IMG/VR virus record: IMGVR_UViG_3300042308_001511
Span: 124,001-188,000 of that record
Source: a virus
Direction: 5' to 3' (one strand)
DNA length: 64,000 nucleotides
Positions 32,403 through 61,672 of this stretch are shown in pieces. The first letter of the stretch is position 1. Each line of letters opens with the position of its first letter. The notes under the pieces are model-generated. The model was not told the origin of the DNA. It did no database searches and was given only the letters and a program-made list of their open reading frames with translations. The position numbers and the translations under genes are program-made.

Positions 32403-33683
32403 ATGAAATATTTGAAGAGATTTTTAGAAACATCTAATAAAGAGTATTCTGTTTTTGATACTGAAGGTTGGAAGAAACTTCTTCCAAAAAAATTAGTAGT
32501 TGTTACACAAAATGGTAGTTGGGAATTAGAGAGACCGGATGGTGATTATGGTATGAATCATGCCACAAATATATCGGGTTTGATGAATGGTCTTCAGATA
32601 GACTATACACAAAATACACCTTCTAAAGAAGGTGGTGATGTTAATAGAGATGGTGAACCTGATCATTTAGTCTTTGATATAAACATCGTTAAGAACAATG
32701 ATGGTACACATGCCAATCCTGACACACTAAAGTTAGATGTTGATATAACATACGGGGATAGTATGATGGTAGAGTTTACAATAGAAAAACCTAATCGTGT
32801 TGAGGTAATACACTACACTGGAATTGGTTCTTTACAAGATTCTGATACTTATTTCGGATTTGAAGACGAATCATTGAAAGAATTAGTACAGTTTTTTAAT
32901 TCTTGGGGTTATAATCTATCTACAAAAGACTTAACATTCATCGATAAATATCCTGATTCTTATATACCAAAGAAAACTAATGAGACAATTGAGTTGAACC
33001 CATCGGGTGATAGGTTCGCATTAATTGTTAACAATTCAATACCGCAAGAAAACAGATTTTTAGAAAATGTCATTAAGTATCTTGATTTCAGAGGTATAAA
33101 ATGGAAAATTGCATCTACTCCAGAAGAAATTAGTAAATGTGTTGAAGATTTTGACTTATTATTTGTAATATCTACTGGTTCTGAGAGGAGTATTTCTAAA
33201 GGAGAAATTACGGGTAATGCAAAAGTTTTGGAAAGTCTCGATATACCAGTTCTTGCCATAGGTTATGGTATGCTTGAAATTGCTAATAGAAATGGTGTGG
33301 ATGTCTATACTACAGAATCTTTGATTCATGGATCGTATGTATTAGAAGAATATGAGACACATAATATTTTCGCAGGTATTGATATGGAAACGGCTAAATT
33401 TTCTTTCTCTTTTTGTGAATTTTTAAAAGAATGTCCTATCGGTTTTAGTGTTGTTGCAAAAAAAGGTGGAATTCCTGTGGCGTTTGCTGATGATGATAAG
33501 AGAATATATGGAGTTTTATTTCATCCAGAAGACATAGATTATACCTATAAGATGATTGATAATTTTGTGGAATTATGTGGTGATTCTGTGGGTAGTGATG
33601 TAGAACAATTGAAAGATAGAATGAAAATAAAAGGTGTGATTGAGAGTTATTCTGAATTTAATAGAAAAAAATATATATACTAA
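32403..33683 (+). CDS. Tagged protein with inactive glutamine-amidotransferase domain
   Basis: The 426-residue protein starts MKYLKRFLETSNKEY (tag with possible cut FLE/T). Residues about 30-180 form an unknown strand-rich domain (YGMNHATNISGLMNG, LDVDITYGDSMMVEFTI). Residues about 204-395 resemble a class I glutamine amidotransferase: FALIVNNSIPQENRFLENVI, LLFVISTGSERS, IPVLAIGYGMLEIANRNG, and YGVLFHPEDID. The nucleophile Cys of the usual GICxG motif is Gly287 here, while His374 and Glu376 remain. So it is probably a binding domain rather than a glutaminase. Likely packaged in the head; ligand unknown. Confidence 0.7.
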   Translation: MKYLKRFLETSNKEYSVFDTEGWKKLLPKKLVVVTQNGSWELERPDGDYGMNHATNISGLMNGLQIDYTQNTPSKEGGDVNRDGEPDHLVFDINIVKNNDGTHANPDTLKLDVDITYGDSMMVEFTIEKPNRVEVIHYTGIGSLQDSDTYFGFEDESLKELVQFFNSWGYNLSTKDLTFIDKYPDSYIPKKTNETIELNPSGDRFALIVNNSIPQENRFLENVIKYLDFRGIKWKIASTPEEISKCVEDFDLLFVISTGSERSISKGEITGNAKVLESLDIPVLAIGYGMLEIANRNGVDVYTTESLIHGSYVLEEYETHNIFAGIDMETAKFSFSFCEFLKECPIGFSVVAKKGGIPVAFADDDKRIYGVLFHPEDIDYTYKMIDNFVELCGDSVGSDVEQLKDRMKIKGVIESYSEFNRKKYIY

Positions 33684-34434: not shown

Positions 34435-35025
34435 ATGAGATACATTAAACTATACGAAGAGTTCAAACACGACGAGATTTATGACGTGATGATGTCTATA
34501 TGTGATACGATTCCCTTTAAAGAATCAACACAATACCCTTCCACCGAGATGGTTAGGGTCTATGAGACTGATTTACCTGTACATTTCGATCCTAAGCAAT
34601 ATGAGGAATACCTTGATGGGTGTACCATCACATCGTATGCATTGACAACGGAAGAATATAACATAGTCTTCATAAAGGGTGATTTGAAAGAGGCCGCACT
34701 TTCCTGGTTGAACGAAGTATACGGGAAACTAATACCAGTAGTCCGTCCTGATGGTGGCGTTTGGGATCATGAAAAAATATGTTATATTGATGGTGATAGA
34801 AGACCATTATTTATGTTAGTTCAACAAAAAGTATGGATCGAAGAAGATAGAATTTGGCGATTCCTTAGCATGCACTTTGGTATAAAATATAAGGAAATGC
34901 AGGATCTTGTGAGAATTTGGTTATCACAGACTTATAAGTTGAGTGGATACACACCTGTACGTACGAGTTTAGATGGATCTATTGGCGTTTTGGAATTATT
35001 TAACCCTAACACAGACACTAACTAA
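34435..35025 (+). CDS. Tagged protein, paralogue of gene at 42882
   Basis: The 196 residues open MRYIKLYEEFKHDEIYDVMM. Nearly the same start and about 60% of the rest are shared with the protein at 42882 (RVYET, FDPxQYEEYLxG, FIKGDxKEAxxSWL, EVYGxL). The C-terminal third is helical (EMQDLVRIWLSQTYKLSG). It lies one base after the previous tagged gene. Packaged-protein candidate. Its stop overlaps the converging gene by 8 bases. Confidence 0.6.
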   Translation: MRYIKLYEEFKHDEIYDVMMSICDTIPFKESTQYPSTEMVRVYETDLPVHFDPKQYEEYLDGCTITSYALTTEEYNIVFIKGDLKEAALSWLNEVYGKLIPVVRPDGGVWDHEKICYIDGDRRPLFMLVQQKVWIEEDRIWRFLSMHFGIKYKEMQDLVRIWLSQTYKLSGYTPVRTSLDGSIGVLELFNPNTDTN

Positions 35026-36808: not shown

Positions 36809-38662
36809 TTGAGTATGAAAAAGATAGAAGAAAAATACAAAAAACTCGATGACATTGATCACGTACTAGCCAGACCGGGCATGTACGTCGGTTCCATAAA
36901 GCCACACACCGCTAACAAATGGATACTCGACGAGAGTAAGATGACTCAGAAAGAACTCACATATAACCCTGGGTTTCTTAAAATATTTGACGAGATTGTC
37001 ACCAATTCAGTCGATGAAAGTAAACGTGAAGGTACAAGACTAAACACTATAAAGGTCTCTGTCAATAAAGAAACAGGTGAGGTATCCGTTTGGGATAACG
37101 GTGGAATACCTGTTGTGATGCACCAAGAGCATAAAGAATGGATCCCGGAAATGATATTCTCAAATTTGAAGGCAGGTTCCAACTTCGATGATACCGAGGC
37201 CAGGTCGTGGGCAGGGACTAACGGTGTGGGTTCAAGTTTGACCAATATTTATTCTAATAAGTTTGAAATCTCAACTTGTGATGGTAAGAATCATTTTTTA
37301 CAGATATTCACCAACAATATGCGTGAGAGAACTGAACCAGTTATAAAGAAGTCAAAACAGAATCACACTAAGATAACTTTTCAAACTGACTTCAACAGGT
37401 TCGGACTTTCTGGTATTGATGATGATCATATGTTGATGTTAGAGAAAAGAGTTTATGACTTAGCAGCATGTAATACTAACGTAAGAATATTCTTCAACGA
37501 CACACTCATAAACTTTAAAACATTCGAAGATTATGTGAAACTTTATACCGATGAATACTTCTATGAAACCAAAAAAGATGCTACCTGGTCATTGGCTGTG
37601 GCACCATCGGATAATGGTTTCCAGCAAATAAGTTTCGTGAATTCAACTGAGACTTATGATGGCGGTACACACATCGACTACATACTCAACCAGATAATAT
37701 CACAGATGCGTGAGTTCTTTCTCAAAAAACATAAAGTAGATATCAAACCTAATGAGTTGAAGGGACATATGACAATTTTTCTTAACTCTACGGTAATAAA
37801 CCCATCATTCTCATCACAGACAAAAGAGAAGTTGATTACAGAATCGAAAGAATTTGGAACAACCTATGAAGTAGATAAGAAGACTATACAAGCTATACTC
37901 AAATCTGAAATAGTGAATTCTATTCTCGATTGGATCCAACAGAAGAAGAGTGCCGAGGATAGTAAACTACAAAGAGAACTAAACAAAAAACTTAGTAAAC
38001 TTAAAGTCGATAAGTTGATTGATGCAAAAGGTAAAGACAGATGGAAGTGTTCATTGGGATTATTCGAAGGTGACTCTGCAAGTTCAGCATACCGGAAATA
38101 TAGAACACCAGAATTGATGGGTGCGTTTGCACTCAGAGGTAAGTTTATAAATGTTTCGGAACTAACCAACCAAAAATTGGTACAGAACAACGAGGCAGTG
38201 AATCTTATGGCGGCGATTGGACTTAAGTTGGGACAACCGATTGATTTGAAAACGTTGAGATATGGAAAGATACTCATTTACACTGATGCGGATGTCGATG
38301 GTAACTCTATCTCCGGTCTTTTGATAAACTTTTTTCACAAGTATTGGCCGGATATGTTTGATCGTAGAATGATATACAAAGTTGAAACTCCAATTGTTGC
38401 GGTGACACCTAAAACGAAGGGAGATAAGAAGAAACTGTTCTATACACAGACCGAGTATAACGAGTGGGAGAAAACTGCGAATATGAAGAATTGGGAGATT
38501 GCATACAAAAAAGGTCTTGGTGCACTTGTGGATGATGAGTATAGGGACATTATAACCAATCCACGTCTGACACTTATTACACGTGACGAAGCATCATCTA
38601 AATCGCTTACGAATTGGTTCGGAAAAAGTCCAGAGGCGAGAAAAGAGGAACTACTTAAATAG
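36809..38662 (+). CDS. Type II DNA topoisomerase large subunit (gp39/gp60-type, unsplit)
   Basis: The 617 residues combine both functions that T4 splits into gp39 and gp60. The GHKL ATPase part has LDDIDHVLARPGMYVGS, FLKIFDEIVTNSVDES (Asn ligand), VWDNGGIPV and AGTNGVGSSL. The transducer has ETYDGGTHID and a switch Lys-type QTKEKL. The TOPRIM part has GLFEGDSASS and KILIYTDADVDGNSI. The start is either TTG 36809 (right spacing from the late-type box) or ATG 36815 (MKKIEEKYKKLDD). It works with the gp52-like subunit at 40908. A partial second copy of its 3' end lies at 39203-39339. Confidence 0.93.
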   Translation: MSMKKIEEKYKKLDDIDHVLARPGMYVGSIKPHTANKWILDESKMTQKELTYNPGFLKIFDEIVTNSVDESKREGTRLNTIKVSVNKETGEVSVWDNGGIPVVMHQEHKEWIPEMIFSNLKAGSNFDDTEARSWAGTNGVGSSLTNIYSNKFEISTCDGKNHFLQIFTNNMRERTEPVIKKSKQNHTKITFQTDFNRFGLSGIDDDHMLMLEKRVYDLAACNTNVRIFFNDTLINFKTFEDYVKLYTDEYFYETKKDATWSLAVAPSDNGFQQISFVNSTETYDGGTHIDYILNQIISQMREFFLKKHKVDIKPNELKGHMTIFLNSTVINPSFSSQTKEKLITESKEFGTTYEVDKKTIQAILKSEIVNSILDWIQQKKSAEDSKLQRELNKKLSKLKVDKLIDAKGKDRWKCSLGLFEGDSASSAYRKYRTPELMGAFALRGKFINVSELTNQKLVQNNEAVNLMAAIGLKLGQPIDLKTLRYGKILIYTDADVDGNSISGLLINFFHKYWPDMFDRRMIYKVETPIVAVTPKTKGDKKKLFYTQTEYNEWEKTANMKNWEIAYKKGLGALVDDEYRDIITNPRLTLITRDEASSKSLTNWFGKSPEARKEELLK

Positions 38663-38713
38663 AATTTAATTCTTACTAAATATAACAACAAATATGAGAA
38701 GTAAATCTTTTCA

Positions 38714-39133
38714 TTAATTTCTAATTAGTATTTGCCGACAGATTTCGTACTCCTCTTTTGTAAAACCTAACCAACTACGACATTTGACTACATTATCCAG
38801 ACCAACGGATTCAATATCTCTTGTGTTATCGTCTATTATTATGTAATTGTCACACGGGTTCTCTCTAAGATACTCTTGTATTTCTAAACCTCTGCCGTCA
38901 TTCAATACTGGTGTTACACCATGTATCTCGGTGGTTATACCATGATATTCGAATATTCTTTGTATTTCTTTCTGAGAGTGTTTGACTCTCCATGTAGAAG
39001 TTATTATTGGTTTTAGATTGAATTCCTGACAAAGGTTATCATACAATTCACATGATAACGAGTTCCAGTCATTTCTGGTCACCGTATTTAGGACACCATC
39101 GATGTCAGTGAATATGTATATAGTTTTGTTCAT
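38714..39133 (-). CDS. HAD-superfamily protein
   Basis: The 139 residues start MNKTIYIFTDIDGVLNTVTR, HAD motif I (DxDGV). ITSTWRVKHSQKEI gives motif II (Thr/Ser), and YIIIDDNTRDIES gives the acidic pair of motif IV. It has no large cap. This group includes small phosphatases often found in phages. A TATCTTTG box lies 5 bases before the ATG. It sits between the topoisomerase gene and the recombination scar, so it may be a recent insertion. Confidence 0.75.
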   Translation of the reverse strand: MNKTIYIFTDIDGVLNTVTRNDWNSLSCELYDNLCQEFNLKPIITSTWRVKHSQKEIQRIFEYHGITTEIHGVTPVLNDGRGLEIQEYLRENPCDNYIIIDDNTRDIESVGLDNVVKCRSWLGFTKEEYEICRQILIRN

Positions 39134-39167: not shown

Positions 39168-39190
39168 TATTCTTGGATCTACATCGAACC
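39168..39190. repeat. 23-bp direct repeat, left copy
   Basis: Identical to 40032-40054, which lies within the 3' coding part of the gene 39984-40865. The two copies flank the kinase gene. Confidence 0.8.
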
Positions 39191-39298
39191 AATTAGTTAA
39201 TGATGTGGATGATGAGTATAGGGACATTATAACCAATCCACGTCTGACACTTATAACTAGAGATGATGTAGCATCCACATCATTAACTAATTGGTTCG
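39185..39298. repeat. 27-bp perfect inverted repeat
   Basis: Left arm 39185-39211 and right arm 39272-39298 are exact reverse complements, with a 60-base spacer. The right arm is coding-derived (T-S-L-T-N-W-F-G of the topoisomerase end); the left arm is an inverted copy. This suggests template switching. Confidence 0.85.
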
Positions 39299-39339
39299 GT
39301 AAAAGTCCAGAGGCGAGAAAAGAGGAACTGCTTAAGTAA
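39203..39339 (+). pseudogene. Duplicated 3' fragment of the topoisomerase large-subunit gene
   Basis: The frame reads VDDEYRDIITNPRLTLITRD, then DVASTSLTNWFGKSP, then EARKEELLK and a stop. The intact gene ends with the same phrase but has EASSKS in place of DVASTS, plus silent differences. So this is the end of a diverged allele rather than a fresh copy. It has no start and should not be expressed. It marks a recombination joint next to the kinase gene. Confidence 0.85.
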
Positions 39340-39349
39340 ATTTAAGTAT

Positions 39350-40015
39350 TTATATAATATTAGGTTCATCAAACCTATTAACTCTTGATTTTATGGGAGT
39401 AGCATCAAAAAGAACTAACTCACCATCACTATTATATCCTAAATTAAAATTATGAAAGTCTAATTTAGGTAGGTCTTTTAAATTAAAGTAACAATTCCAA
39501 ATTTGAGTTACTAGTTTTTTAGAAAATGGTTTATCTAAATTATATTCTTCTTCTATACTATTAATATAATCTTCTTTTTCCAAACTACCCCAGTTGTAAA
39601 AAATTATATCAGTTGCTAAAACGGCCAATGATTCATATACTCGACCATATTTCATTTTATTAAAAAAATCATTTAATCCTTCTACTCTATCCATTATAAT
39701 CACCCAAAGCATTAAACCTTTAGCTTGATATCTAAAAACATTATAATATTTAACAACTGATATATTAACATTTTTTATTAAATCCAATGCCATTTTTGCC
39801 TCTCTTTTATCGGTTGTTACTTTTAAGACTTTATTATCAAAGGAGTAAGCATTTCCATATGAACCACTTGATAAAAATTTAACTTTATTTATATCAATAT
39901 TTAACTTTTGACAAATATCACCTAATTCAATTTTGGATAATGAAATTGATTTTGAACCATATGGGTGTTTGGGTTTCAAATATCTAAATTCTTTTAACTC
40001 CTTTAAGTATTTCAT
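39350..40015 (-). CDS. Tagged mini protein kinase
   Basis: The 221 residues start MKYLKELKEFRYLKPKH (tag). Then follows a compact kinase fold: Gly loop SSGSYGNAY (about 49-57), beta-3 Lys65 (VLK), Glu72, hinge WVIIMDRVEG, catalytic loop Asp186-x-His-x-x-Asn191, and metal Asp204 (LFDAT in place of DFG). The Asp-Asn-Asp spacing (5 and 13) is canonical, so activity is plausible. The start overlaps the 3' end of the upstream gene by 32 bases. It lies between two copies of a 23-bp direct repeat, which suggests cassette insertion. Likely injected with the DNA to phosphorylate host targets; this is inferred. Confidence 0.7.
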   Translation of the reverse strand: MKYLKELKEFRYLKPKHPYGSKSISLSKIELGDICQKLNIDINKVKFLSSGSYGNAYSFDNKVLKVTTDKREAKMALDLIKNVNISVVKYYNVFRYQAKGLMLWVIIMDRVEGLNDFFNKMKYGRVYESLAVLATDIIFYNWGSLEKEDYINSIEEEYNLDKPFSKKLVTQIWNCYFNLKDLPKLDFHNFNLGYNSDGELVLFDATPIKSRVNRFDEPNII

Positions 40016-40865
40016 ATTCTTCTTTTAGAGGTATTCTTGGATCTACATCGAACCTATCACTGATATAATCTTTTAGTTCGTTCTCAATGTAATGATCCGG
40101 AACTTCCATATCATCAGGTTCGGAATCCATTTTCACAATTATGTGTTTATTGAAATCTTCCAGAACTTCTGGTTTTATAGCATCTACGAAACCATCAGAA
40201 ACAACAAAAGCACGTGAGAACCTATCTTTTACATCGAAATCACCTTCTGGAACTTTCATATAATAGGTTACAAAAGTTTTTAGGAAATCAACATATTTAG
40301 AATCTGATTCAACGTGTTTTAGAACCGGTTTTATTATTTTATTGAACGTTCTGGAAGTACCTAATACCAATCCAATTACTGCCAACATAGGATAAAAAGG
40401 TGCCAACAAAAGTGGTATGGCTCTTGGAACTGCTTGCCAGACTGCCTTCTTTGCATCCATTGCGATTTTTGCTTCTTTTGCATCTGCGAATATTGCTCTT
40501 AACATACCGAATGTAAACTTACCACCGCTATTTACAAGATAGTCTTTTAACTTACCTCTTTTTGATAATGAAACCTGCGTAGCAATTTCGTCATCCAATA
40601 ATAGTTCGGAGACCTTTTCAGCCTTTTTGGCTTTTAGTGCCGACCAAAAACGCGTGCTCGATAGAAGATAATCAGAATACCCAAGTTCTTTCAACATAAA
40701 TTTGGCTCGGTCTTCGGTCAAATCAATCAAATTGTTAGCCACACCTAAAAGTCTTTCTTTGTTGGCTGTTTCCGATGCTACCTTTCTGAGTTCAGATTTT
40801 AGATTGTCATCCCTAAGTAGTAGACTCTCGACCACAAAATTTTCATATACTTTAAGCTTTCTCAT
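39984..40865 (-). CDS. Tagged helical protein with hydrophobic segment
   Basis: From the ATG at 40865 the product has 293 residues: MRKLKVYENFVVESLLLRD (tag, possible cut VVE/S). Long charged helices follow (SELRKVASETANKERLLGVANNL), then a hydrophobic stretch AIPLLLAPFYPMLAVIGLVLG and an acidic C-terminal half (SEPDDMEVPDHYIENEL). The longer reading upstream is rejected because a TATATATAG box sits 5 bases before this ATG. Its last codons contain the right copy of the 23-bp repeat. Perhaps an internal head protein that inserts in membrane. Confidence 0.6.
   Translation of the reverse strand: MRKLKVYENFVVESLLLRDDNLKSELRKVASETANKERLLGVANNLIDLTEDRAKFMLKELGYSDYLLSSTRFWSALKAKKAEKVSELLLDDEIATQVSLSKRGKLKDYLVNSGGKFTFGMLRAIFADAKEAKIAMDAKKAVWQAVPRAIPLLLAPFYPMLAVIGLVLGTSRTFNKIIKPVLKHVESDSKYVDFLKTFVTYYMKVPEGDFDVKDRFSRAFVVSDGFVDAIKPEVLEDFNKHIIVKMDSEPDDMEVPDHYIENELKDYISDRFDVDPRIPLKEEYEILKGVKRI
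40032..40054. repeat. 23-bp direct repeat, right copy
   Basis: Copy within the coding 3' end of the tagged helical protein; matches 39168-39190. Confidence 0.8.
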
Positions 40866-40870
40866 ACAGA

Positions 40871-40903
40871 CTATATATAAAAGAACCGAAAGCCGATATA
40901 TAC
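40871..40903. promoter_or_regulatory. Divergent pair of late-type boxes
   Basis: TATATATAG on the reverse strand (40871-40879) is 5 bases before the ATG at 40865. GATATATAC on the forward strand (40895-40903) is 4 bases before the ATG at 40908. Confidence 0.6.
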
Positions 40904-40907
40904 AAGC

Positions 40908-42248
40908 ATGAGTCAAAAATCGATAACAGACTTCCTAGCGGATGAGTACAAAGAGTTCGCAATGTACACAATTGAGGGTCGAGCCATACCATCCGTCATA
41001 GATGGTTTCAAGCCGACTGCCAGGAAGATAATACACGTAAGTGCCAACATTTGGCGAACTGGACAAGAGAAACCATTGAAGGTATTCCAACTTTCTGGTA
41101 AAGTGGCGTCGGATGCATTTTACCATCATGGATCTTCCAGTTTGGAAAACGCCATCATAACAATGGCACAGAAGTTTAAAAATAACGCTCCACTTCTTGA
41201 AGAGATAGGACAATTTGGATCTCTGAGATCTCCTCAGGCTGCGGCACCTCGATATATTGGAACCAAACTGAACAACAATTTCAGGTTACTCTACAAAGAC
41301 TTTGAACTACTCGACTTCAAAGAAGAGGAAGGTGAAGCGATTGAACCAAAATACTTTTTACCAATTATACCGACAGTATTGATTAATGGATCACAAGGTA
41401 TATCTGTTGGGTTCACTTCAAATGTATTGAACAGAGATGTGAAGGGTATAACAGATGCTTGTATTGATATATTGAAAGGTAAAGAACCAAGAGAAGTCAA
41501 ACCGTCACTCAATGAATTTACTGGTGAATTTACAAGAGATGTTGATAATCACAAAAGGTGGTTGATACGTGGTAAGTTTCAACGAGTAAATACTTCTACT
41601 ATTAGAATAACGGAATTACCACCATCATTGACATATGAGAAATATGAAGAGATTCTTGATGAATTATGTGAGAAAAAGAAGATTGTATCTTACGATGATA
41701 ATTGTGCTGACAACGTTGATTTTACTATAAAATTCACAAGATCTGACTTAGAATCATTAGACGATGAAAAAATTGTAAAGTTATTGAAACTTGAAGAGGC
41801 AGAAACGGAAGCCTTCTCTACTTTGGATGAGAATGGTAAACTTAAAATATTCAATAGTGCATCTGATATAATAAAATACTTTGTAGAATTCAGACTCAAC
41901 TACTATCATAAGAGGAAAGCATTCTTACTTGATAGAATGAATAAAGACCTCAAAATTCTTAGTAATAGAGGAAGATTCATCAAGGCAATACTCGATGAAA
42001 AGTTGAAGATAAACAATGTTCCTAAGGCAGAGATAGTAAAGGGTATAGAGTTACTCGGATTAGACCTGATAGAAGGAAACTATGATTACTTACTCAGGAT
42101 GCCAATCTACTCATTGACACAGGAACTTTTCGAGAAATTAAAAGCAGATTTCACTGCAAAAAAGGTAGAGATAAAGAAATTAGAAGAAACCGAACCTAAG
42201 GATATGTACTTAGACGACTTAGACGAGTTGAAAAGAAAGTTCAAATGA
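40908..42248 (+). CDS. Type II DNA topoisomerase medium subunit (gp52-type)
   Basis: The 446 residues match the breakage-reunion subunit. ITDFLADEYKEFAMYTIEGRAIPSVIDGFKPTARKI is followed by GKVASDAFYHHGSSSLENAI, then LRSPQAAAPRYIGTKL with the catalytic Tyr after Arg. Next come IPTVLINGSQGISVGF and a coiled-coil tail (KLEETEPKDMYLDDLDELKRK). It forms the heteromeric phage topoisomerase with the protein at 36809. It is coupled by ATGA to the next gene. Confidence 0.93.
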   Translation: MSQKSITDFLADEYKEFAMYTIEGRAIPSVIDGFKPTARKIIHVSANIWRTGQEKPLKVFQLSGKVASDAFYHHGSSSLENAIITMAQKFKNNAPLLEEIGQFGSLRSPQAAAPRYIGTKLNNNFRLLYKDFELLDFKEEEGEAIEPKYFLPIIPTVLINGSQGISVGFTSNVLNRDVKGITDACIDILKGKEPREVKPSLNEFTGEFTRDVDNHKRWLIRGKFQRVNTSTIRITELPPSLTYEKYEEILDELCEKKKIVSYDDNCADNVDFTIKFTRSDLESLDDEKIVKLLKLEEAETEAFSTLDENGKLKIFNSASDIIKYFVEFRLNYYHKRKAFLLDRMNKDLKILSNRGRFIKAILDEKLKINNVPKAEIVKGIELLGLDLIEGNYDYLLRMPIYSLTQELFEKLKADFTAKKVEIKKLEETEPKDMYLDDLDELKRKFK

Positions 42249-42621: not shown

Positions 42622-42882
42622 ATGAAACACTTAAATTCGTACAAAACCTTCGAGAATATGGAAAGAGATAGTATGCAAAGAGACATTTGCGACAGATGTG
42701 AGCAACCTCCTATAAATAATACTACAATAATGAGTAAGTTCAACACGCAAGTAATCTGTATGCCGTGCAAAAAAAAAGAGATGAAACACACTAAATACGA
42801 AGACGCGTGTAAAGCAGAAAAGCAAGCAAATGATAAAGGTGATTATAACTTCAAAGGGATAGGAAAGCCAGATGATTTATAA
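42622..42882 (+). CDS. Tagged zinc-ribbon protein
   Basis: The 86 residues begin MKHLNSYKTFENMERDS (tag). A CDRCEQ pair and a CMPCKKKE pair 24 residues apart form a zinc-binding ribbon. The tail is Lys-rich with EDACKAEKQANDKGDYNF. AATATATAC lies 19 bases upstream. It overlaps the next tagged gene by TAATG. Likely a small packaged DNA- or protein-binding factor. Confidence 0.65.
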   Translation: MKHLNSYKTFENMERDSMQRDICDRCEQPPINNTTIMSKFNTQVICMPCKKKEMKHTKYEDACKAEKQANDKGDYNFKGIGKPDDL

Positions 42883-43424
42883 TGAGATACATTAAGCTTT
42901 ACGAAGAGTTCGGACACGACGAGATTTACGACGTGATGATGTCCATATGCGATACTGTCTCTTTTAAAGAGTCGGATGTTTACCCTTCCACCGAAAGTAT
43001 CAGGGTCTACGAGACATCTGAACCCGTAGAGTTCGATCCTAATCAATATGAGGAATACCTGGAGGGTTGGACTATCAGACGCTTCATAATTGCTAATTGG
43101 GTTGTAATAGGCGGTAAAAATATTATTGCTTTCATAAAGGGAGACTATAAAGAGGCTAGTATATCCTGGTTGAAAGAAGTATATGGGAATCTAAAACCAA
43201 AGGAGCAAGATGGTAATATCTATTATAGAGATGGTGAAAGCGAACCTTTATTTTACTATTACAAATACAACACCGGGTACTACTACGTCAACCATAAAAG
43301 AATTTGGTCACTTTTTGAATATTTCGGTCTAAAAAAAGATGAAATAAGGAAATTGATAAGTGTTTGGCTTAGAGATATCTATAATTTAAGTGAACTCGCA
43401 CCTGATCCAAAATATTATATGTAG
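42882..43424 (+). CDS. Tagged protein, paralogue of gene at 34435
   Basis: The 180 residues start MRYIKLYEEFGHDEIYDVMM and follow the other copy closely through FIKGDYKEASISWLKEVYG. They then diverge in the Tyr-rich C-terminal part (FYYYKYNTGYYYVNHKR). The 5' 70 bases of the two genes are nearly identical, so the duplication is fairly recent. The pair brackets the topoisomerase/kinase region. Function unknown; packaged-protein candidate. Confidence 0.6.
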   Translation: MRYIKLYEEFGHDEIYDVMMSICDTVSFKESDVYPSTESIRVYETSEPVEFDPNQYEEYLEGWTIRRFIIANWVVIGGKNIIAFIKGDYKEASISWLKEVYGNLKPKEQDGNIYYRDGESEPLFYYYKYNTGYYYVNHKRIWSLFEYFGLKKDEIRKLISVWLRDIYNLSELAPDPKYYM

Positions 43425-60496: not shown

Positions 60497-61672
60497 ATGA
60501 AAAAGAAGATAATGAGTTATGATGTTTTCTTGGAGAATAAATCCACGGAAATGCCATTACCACAAGACGTTCTCGATATAGCTGCGGCATATACTGCAGC
60601 TGGGAAGGAGATATACGTTGTTGGTGGTGCAGTTCGAGACTTCCGAAAGGGTGTTGAACCAAAAGACTATGATTTGGTAACTAATGCACTACCGGAGGAG
60701 TCCAAACAGATACTAAAAGGTTTCTGTGTTTCTGATGAACAGGGTAAGAATTTTGGAGTACTTAGAGTATACACTGAATCGGAACCAGAAGGTTACGAGA
60801 TTGCTTCTTTTAGAAGAGATATCGCCAAAGGAAGAGACACAAAGGGTGAAGACCAAAAGGTTGATATGGGTCCTGATGTTACCATTGAAGATGACGTTAT
60901 GAGACGTGACCTTACTATGAATGCATTATTCTATGATATTGCTAAGAAAGAGATAGTCGACTTAGTTGGTGGTATGGATGATATAAGTGGTAACCAGATT
61001 AGAGCTGTTGGTGATGCATCACAGAGGTTCGTTGAGGATAGATTGAGGATAATGAGAGTGATAAGATTCGCTGCTAGAACGAATGGTATTATTGAAGAAA
61101 AAACCGCGGATGCTATTAGAAAAGATAACAGATTAAGAGACGTAGGGCCAACTGATGATGTATCTCAGGAAAGAATCTGGGAAGAGATGATGAAGGCTTG
61201 GAAACAAGCCAAAGATTATACACAATACCTTTCTTACTTCAAAGAGTTTGATATGTGGAGTCAAGTTTTTCCAGGTGTTAAAGTTTCTGATCCGGTAAAT
61301 AGTGCTGACTTTTCGGTAGTTATTGCATCTCTTCTAAGAGATAATCCTTCTGATTATCTTGATAAAAAACTCGTTCAGGATTTCAGGATTGATACATCAT
61401 TAGCAAAAAAGATTGTTTTTCTTGTTTCACTTAGAGATTTTGATGCTGAGAAGGTACTTGACTACTGGAAGAAAAGACAGTCTTCTGGTATATCTGATCA
61501 GACAATATTAGAGTGGTTAACGAAAACTGCGGTTGAACGACAAGATGTTATTAAGTTTGTGGATTGGAAACCTTCTGTAAAGTCAGAGGAACTCATAAAT
61601 AAAGGCTTCGCTGGTAAAGCATTGGGTGAGGAGATTAGAAGGTTAGAGGTAGAGAATTTCAAAGGTAAATAG
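60497..61672 (+). CDS. Tagged CCA-adding/poly(A) polymerase-family nucleotidyltransferase
   Basis: The 391 residues start MKKKIMSYDVFLENKSTEM (tag with FLE/N). The body is a class II tRNA nucleotidyltransferase: EIYVVGGAVRDFRKGVEPKDYDLVTN (G-G-x-V-R-D and the DxD pair), MRRDLTMNALFYDI, DRLRIMRVIRFAARTNG and SQERIWEEMMKAW. The C-terminal part is helical. Metal and nucleotide residues are present. It could add CCA or A to RNA ends. No tRNA gene is in the window. The tag suggests delivery into the host at infection, perhaps to repair tRNAs damaged by defence nucleases. Confidence 0.85.
   Translation: MKKKIMSYDVFLENKSTEMPLPQDVLDIAAAYTAAGKEIYVVGGAVRDFRKGVEPKDYDLVTNALPEESKQILKGFCVSDEQGKNFGVLRVYTESEPEGYEIASFRRDIAKGRDTKGEDQKVDMGPDVTIEDDVMRRDLTMNALFYDIAKKEIVDLVGGMDDISGNQIRAVGDASQRFVEDRLRIMRVIRFAARTNGIIEEKTADAIRKDNRLRDVGPTDDVSQERIWEEMMKAWKQAKDYTQYLSYFKEFDMWSQVFPGVKVSDPVNSADFSVVIASLLRDNPSDYLDKKLVQDFRIDTSLAKKIVFLVSLRDFDAEKVLDYWKKRQSSGISDQTILEWLTKTAVERQDVIKFVDWKPSVKSEELINKGFAGKALGEEIRRLEVENFKGK

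Follow-up and report, generated by a model that had tools for sequence, protein, structure and literature searches.

A putative minimal T7 gp0.7-type protein kinase with a proposed T4-like capsid-targeting tag in a virus record related to the Mahaphages

We present here a 221-residue protein (P0001) of a giant bacteriophage that we read as a minimal T7 gp0.7-type protein kinase bearing a capsid targeting sequence like that of T4, which would be packaged and injected and would phosphorylate host proteins; we put the probability of this reading at about one half. Its best-supported role, by homology to T7 gp0.7, would be host takeover, beginning at time zero if the protein is packaged. The takeover kinases known from phages are expressed early, and one delivered in the virion would need no phage gene to be expressed before it acts. 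The window analyzed is a stretch of 64,000 nucleotides, bases 124001-188000 of a 344,083-base IMG/VR virus record.

Gene sequence and catalytic residues

The open frame at 39350-40015 lies on the minus strand only (40015→39350); the plus strand over the same interval is packed with stops. The gene and its predicted kinase features are as follows.

39350..40015, minus strand: predicted mini protein kinase P0001, 221 aa (gp0.7 HMM, AF2 kinase fold, Foldseek kinases)
39848..39874, minus strand: glycine loop, residues 48-56 (LSSGSYGNA), from the sequence, between the first two model strands
39821..39823, minus strand: Lys65 (VLK65VT), the ATP-anchoring lysine of strand 3, in model strand 62-67
39800..39802, minus strand: Glu72 (KRE72A), the helix C acidic partner, in model helix 70-81
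39443..39460, minus strand: catalytic loop, Asp186 to Asn191 (DFHNFN; LD186FHNFN191), aligning with gp0.7 DxHxxN
39404..39406, minus strand: Asp204, the metal-binding Asp (FD204ATP; gp0.7 has TDP), invariant in alignments A1 and A5

An earlier note on this DNA had proposed a mini protein kinase with an intact active site made up of Lys65, Glu72, Asp186, Asn191 and Asp204. All five residues are at those positions in the 221 residues of the minus-strand frame, and the gp0.7 profile and the AF2 fold described below argue for the kinase assignment. G51 (S50-G51-SYG), Lys65 and N191 are invariant in alignments A1 and A5, the column of Glu72 or the adjoining one is acidic in most aligned relatives, and the spacing D-(+5)-N-(+13)-D is PKA-like. 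The protein stops 17 residues past Asp204, without the activation segment, APE or helices F-I, and has DAT in place of DFG, with no DFG glycine.

Predicted fold and sequence profiles

From the single sequence, AF2 gave a poor model (pLDDT 40.7); with a 14-sequence alignment the model was usable, with a pTM of 0.64 and pLDDT values of 83-91 over most of the N-lobe and 56-74 over most of the C-lobe. It contains strands 46-50, 54-59 and 62-67, helix 70-81, strands 90-98 and 101-109, and a C-terminal part formed by a small helical lobe and a strand pair (191-194/200-203). The kinase-like N-lobe is strong and the minimal C-lobe moderate, together giving a two-lobed kinase fold; residues 1-21 have pLDDT <50 and are predicted to be flexible. 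Against the PDB, Foldseek returned as best matches only kinases and kinase-fold phosphotransferases, with protein kinases and APH(2'')-Ia at E ~1e-4 and probability 1.00, at TM scores of only 0.3-0.4. Against viral models, a marine phage protein of 217 aa was the best full-length match (22% identity, TM 0.61), and proteins annotated as phage protein kinases came next. The predicted fold is that of a kinase and not that of an ADP-ribosyltransferase. Structure prediction had been proposed in the earlier note as a check, and both AF2 and Foldseek point to the kinase fold.

P0001 matched no Pfam family at E<1, Pkinase included, had no match in the PDB by sequence, and had no match at E<1 to PHROGs 2828, 15752 and 18305, nor any strong PHROG match otherwise. 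The gp0.7 relationship is visible only with a new profile. A permissive tblastn search of 50,697 phage records with P0001 gave 70 weak matches (best E=0.03), 66 of which lie in the gp0.7 kinase of Klebsiella-type T7-like phages and span residues 20/29-218; the other 4 come from Flavobacterium phages. A gp0.7-type kinase HMM was built from 11 diverse members, including the 213-aa versions of EC22.5-2 and fENko-Kae01, with P0001 left out. P0001 scored top of all ORFs collected at that stage (21.2 bits, E=2e-5), compared with a maximum of 6.1 bits among 2000 composition-preserving shuffles of P0001, and its E value was 6e-9 with one more relative added. When alignment A1 was compared with the PDB, the listed matches were all kinases, the eukaryotic ones aligning in register across both N-lobe and catalytic loop. 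Scans of IMG/VR and GTDB with P0001 or its N-lobe found no relatives, and no direct kinase homolog was found in the three Mahaphage relatives searched. By profile and predicted fold, P0001 is a kinase of the T7 gp0.7 type; we infer that it is catalytically active and that its substrates are proteins and not small molecules.

The N-terminal tag

39986..40015, minus strand: tag MKYLKELKEF, residues 1-10, resembling the T4 capsid targeting sequence (tag profiles, blind T4 test)

The P0001 frame extends just 3 codons 5' of the start MKYLKELKEF, and no further in-frame Met occurs before residue 75, past the glycine loop; the tag is therefore part of any product that contains the glycine loop. Many proteins of the same phage begin M[KR]x[LI]Kx[YF]xxF. 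The strict pattern is present in 27 of the 470 genes of the 344-kb record, compared with 0-3 in shuffles, and a position-specific profile gives 35 of these 470 genes a score equal to or above that of P0001, against an expectation of 0.05. The tag MKYLKx[YF]xxF is carried by about 35-45 of the 470 genes and by ~101 of the 859 genes of the 635-kb relative LR745206 (loci L092-L121, L002 and L081). Under a profile from LR745206 only, P0001 ranks 21st of 470 and scores higher than every one of 9400 shuffled N-termini; the LR745206 tags were chosen with the first profile, which came partly from the genome studied here, so the two profiles are not wholly independent, and P0001 is in neither training set. 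In 40 of the 101 LR745206 tags an [LI]xE ends at residues 9-15, compared with a background of 7.5%.

Synonymous codon use within the tag is broadly as varied as elsewhere in the genome, which places the constraint on the peptide; a role as an mRNA or translation feature was rejected for this reason. Inheritance through paralogy alone was also rejected, with 7% mean column identity among the tagged bodies and membership in different Pfam families. These bodies are mostly unrelated and include a poly(A) polymerase/CCA-type nucleotidyltransferase, GATase, polynucleotide kinase-HAD, GNAT and a DnaJ zinc motif. A few small paralogous groups occur among the tagged proteins (e.g., MRYIKLYEEF...MMSIC); one such family, MRYIKLYE[ED]F with a VMMSIC motif, has at least 4 copies (window 34435-35022 and 42882-43421; L017:4683-5138 and L017:11307-11939). 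Late-promoter-like sites with ≤1 mismatch lie upstream of 57% of tagged genes, compared with 39%, a slight and not decisive enrichment that was set aside as too weak to serve as evidence on the tagged genes.

Tagged enzymes are encoded at window 60497-61669, L015:12759-14123 (minus strand), L017:8665-9372 (minus strand) and window 32403-33680; they comprise a poly(A) polymerase/CCA-adding type, a polynucleotide kinase-HAD of RNA repair type, a GNAT acetyltransferase and a class-I glutamine amidotransferase. RNA-repair enzymes, if present in the head, would suit defense against tRNA-cleaving host systems.

Phage T4 loads its internal proteins IPI-IPIII into the head via a ten-residue N-terminal capsid targeting sequence (CTS), in which targeting depends mainly on residues 4 and 7 and processing on residues 8 and 10; the prohead protease gp21 cuts after L/I-x-E, and an Asp at position 10 blocks cleavage while targeting is kept (PMC9026906). 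In a blind test, the tag profiles, built without any T4 data, were applied to all 270 T4 ORF N-termini. The profile built from the 344-kb record plus relatives placed 61.1, IPIII, IPII and IPI at ranks 1-4 of 270 (equaled by 1 of 1000 column permutations), and the LR745206-only profile placed IPI, 61.1, IPIII and IPII at ranks 1-4 (equaled by 0 of 1000); the IPI-III N-termini are related, so these are not three independent successes, and the permutation test allows for their kinship. Among the 270 N-termini, T4 Alt, gp21, gp22, gp23, gp24 and gp68 gave no tag score under the record-plus-relatives profile.

T4 gene 61.1 (NC_000866, L084:18966-19130, minus strand), a gene of unknown function, has the N-terminus MKTFKEFIKE and a tag score alongside those of the internal proteins; by its N-terminal sequence it may be an unrecognized internal head protein.

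The balance of the sequence evidence favors the tag class being a T4-like capsid targeting sequence. P0001 itself keeps M1, K2, Y3, L4, K5 and F10 of the tag and has Leu at position 7, which corresponds to T4 targeting residue 4 and is Tyr or Phe in 95 of the 101 LR745206 tags and Leu in 1. Past F10 it has no [LIVMF]xE, the only such sites being the LKE at 4-6 and 7-9, within the tag. The P0001 copy may be weak, decayed or uncleaved. The head-targeting tag that the earlier note had read from this start therefore holds up as a class, genome-wide and CTS-like in the blind test, and less well for P0001, with its Leu7 and no Glu after Phe10.

Neighborhood and phage lineage

The flanking features are as follows.

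39984..40916, minus strand: gene X, upstream of the kinase, with a strong tag, MRKLKVYENF (ATG at 40865), and tagged orthologs in relatives
38714..39133, minus strand: HAD_SAK_2 (RNA-repair type HAD phosphatase), no tag (Pfam PF18143, E=2e-20)
39204..39360, plus strand: a second, degenerate copy of the 3' end of gp39, 83-87% identical to the original at 38527-38683
39168..39193, plus strand: copy of the tail of gene X, 26 nt, 96% identical to the original at 40032-40057

The 3' end of gene X overlaps the kinase start by 32 nt, which suggests that translation of the kinase is coupled to that of gene X. Orthologs of gene X retain the tag in two relatives, LR745206 and LR756502, where they lie beside gp39 (MRKLKVYENFVVES, MKNIIKYNHFLILE, MNTIKKYDEFLIQE). 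Both duplicated tails lie between the kinase and gp39, and the gp39-tail copy runs into the kinase stop codon; an inverted repeat is present at the duplicated tails (39174-39211 / 39272-39309). The arrangement gp39 / HAD gene / X-tail' / gp39-tail' / kinase / X, together with the duplicated tails, is as expected from recombination joining two versions of a gp39-cargo-X locus that carried the HAD_SAK gene and the kinase, respectively. In LR745206 the slot next to X holds another tagged gene that is not a kinase. Given the duplicated tails, this different occupant of the slot and the failure to find a relative in the three Mahaphages searched, the kinase appears to be an accessory gene gained recently at a slot whose contents vary.

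The gp39 topoisomerase of the record is 73% identical to the LR745206 and LR756502 versions. The Mahaphage clade includes genomes of 634 and 642 kb, with Bacteroidetes as predicted hosts (PMC7162821). On the 344-kb record there was no match to gp23 (over cut-off), gp21 or TerL, so the record is probably a fragment of a larger genome. All three Mahaphage relatives have gp23 over cut-off and a gp21-like protease domain that is divergent (E=1e-4 to 4e-6, below the Pfam cut-off). This domain lies in a ~700-aa protein starting MKPVLI[IV]EN, beside the portal and gp23 (L081:8546-10669, L082:8272-10371 and L083:9342-11636); T4 gp21 has ~212 aa, and the Mahaphage protein is perhaps fused to a scaffold. 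With gp23 and a gp21-like protease in the relatives and [LI]xE in the tags, the lineage has the parts that a T4-like route of targeting and cleavage needs. A match to PHROG 94, "head maturation protease," on the 344-kb record was rejected as ClpP-like; it was also obtained in 12 of 14 bacterial and archaeal controls.

Proposed role and alternatives

In the reading that we prefer, synthesis of the kinase in the infected cell would be coupled to that of the tagged gene X, and the ten-residue N-terminal tag of the kinase would dock it onto the prohead core, as the tags of T4 IPI-IPIII do. DNA would be packaged around the kinase, and the kinase would be injected together with the DNA. It would phosphorylate host proteins, by analogy with gp0.7 perhaps RNA polymerase, RNases and translation factors, and expression would be shifted phage-ward before any phage gene is on. 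Packaging, injection and these targets are what we infer beyond the kinase assignment itself; packaging of P0001 in the head has about even odds, being placed near one half on account of Leu7 and the lack of a cleavage Glu after Phe10. More tentative, and somewhat short of even chances, is the wider proposal that Mahaphage-type phages load about a tenth of their proteome (~100 proteins in LR745206, ~35-45 on the record studied here) via a CTS-related address, with a cargo that includes a gp0.7-like kinase phosphorylating host proteins at infection, before phage transcription. If the tag is a CTS, the injected cargo of the largest known phages could be read from sequence alone, with ~100 candidates per genome, most of unknown function; among those with annotations are a glutamine amidotransferase-like protein, an acetyltransferase, enzymes of RNA repair and tRNA ends, and the kinase studied here.

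A gp0.7-type kinase could also be produced and act within the infected cell, as that of T7 does, with a tag that is degenerate or belongs to a class with another purpose, such as docking onto a non-head structure made by the phage, and with no delivery alongside the genome. All kinase relatives identified here lack the tag (0 of 12; scores of -7.7 to -17, compared with +10.5 for P0001), and those of T7-like phages sit in the early region beside the RNA polymerase gene. P0001 lacks the usual position 7 residue and the cleavage Glu, which among the tag features have the closest ties to function in T4, and the small difference in late-promoter-like sites, though not decisive, also fits in-cell use. 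Against this course count the P0001 N-terminus, which beats all 9400 shuffles under the profile of another phage, the predicted flexibility of residues 1-21 and the overlap with the strongly tagged gene X; we consider it possible, on the doubtful side.

P0001 might instead be a kinase-fold small-molecule phosphotransferase, similar to aminoglycoside phosphotransferases and acting on a metabolite or nucleotide signal: APH(2'')-Ia is among its best PDB fold matches, DFHNFN resembles the APH/choline kinase loop, and the activation segment and later helices are absent. We judge this unlikely, since the sequence profiles favor gp0.7 protein kinases, protein kinases rank equally in the PDB fold search and phage kinases dominate the viral one, and P0001 aligns with T7 gp0.7 along the kinase domain of the latter, which is a proven protein kinase (PMC4858673). 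Very improbable is an inactive kinase-fold protein that merely binds ATP or a host protein, to which DAT without the DFG glycine and the missing activation segment would be suited, as the five catalytic residues are all intact and gp0.7, which also has DP for DFG, is active (PMC4858673).

Comparison with known systems

T7 gp0.7 is a proven, active protein kinase whose substrates include RNase III, RNA polymerase beta-prime and translation factors, favoring phage expression (PMC4858673). The N-terminal kinase domain of this serine/threonine kinase (PHROGs 2828, 15752 and 18305) aligns lengthwise with P0001 and has the same catalytic motifs. P0001 differs from gp0.7 in lacking the C-terminal host transcription shut-off domain, which jumbo-phage versions also lack, in having no adjoining RNA polymerase gene and in carrying the N-terminal tag; gp0.7 is an early gene product and not a virion protein. 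Known phage protein kinases (T7 gp0.7, 933W Stk and HipA-like kinases) are described as acting early, in lysogeny or late (PMC8008677). No report of a packaged phage protein kinase was found in the literature searched, which is not proof of absence.

The mini-kinases of EC22.5-2 and fENko-Kae01, jumbo enterobacterial phages of Escherichia and Klebsiella, are 213 aa long, similar in size to P0001. Like P0001, they have a C-lobe truncated soon after the last Asp and the K/D/N/D set, and are encoded by a stand-alone gene in a ~350-kb phage; they are ~15-20% identical to P0001, start MTKQEIFK without the tag and have DP where P0001 has DAT. The small size of P0001 is therefore typical of its group, as these proteins also lack the activation segment and helices F-I. 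The 146-aa kinase-like proteins of Flavobacterium phages (Immutovirus, immuto_13-6C) share the N-lobe with P0001, including GDYGAVF and KVTTD, at 29% identity for the first one found; they are shorter, have a catalytic loop that is replaced or rearranged, and end right after the last Asp. Across this family (L031:1911-2351; L032-L063) the N-lobe is normal, the loop is rearranged (YPDLEGPGGSIKMDN) and the protein stops at the metal Asp. The earlier note's emphasis on small size is thus borne out for the length of 221 aa and fails as a mark of rarity, with relatives of 213 aa in jumbo coliphages and of 146 aa in Flavobacterium phages.

The T4 CTS (MKTYQEFIAE) resembles the tag in being a ten-residue signal at the extreme N-terminus with a hydrophobic/aromatic pair three residues apart. 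Its targeting residues 4 and 7 (PMC9026906) align with tag positions 7 and 10, the tag (MKYLK-x-Y-x-x-F) being two to three residues longer. The tag is found on ~100 proteins of a Mahaphage, compared with three in T4, and with nearly 100 tagged proteins it may also do something else. T4 Alt, to which the earlier note had likened the kinase in timing, is a head-carried, injected enzyme that acts on host machinery at time zero (PMC9026906), and only the same course is proposed for P0001. The likeness extends to timing and no further: the Alt N-terminus ranks 81st of 270 under the tag profile, with no tag-like score, and Alt is an ADP-ribosyltransferase. For the N-terminus the right analogues are IPI, IPII and IPIII, and for the chemistry T7 gp0.7.
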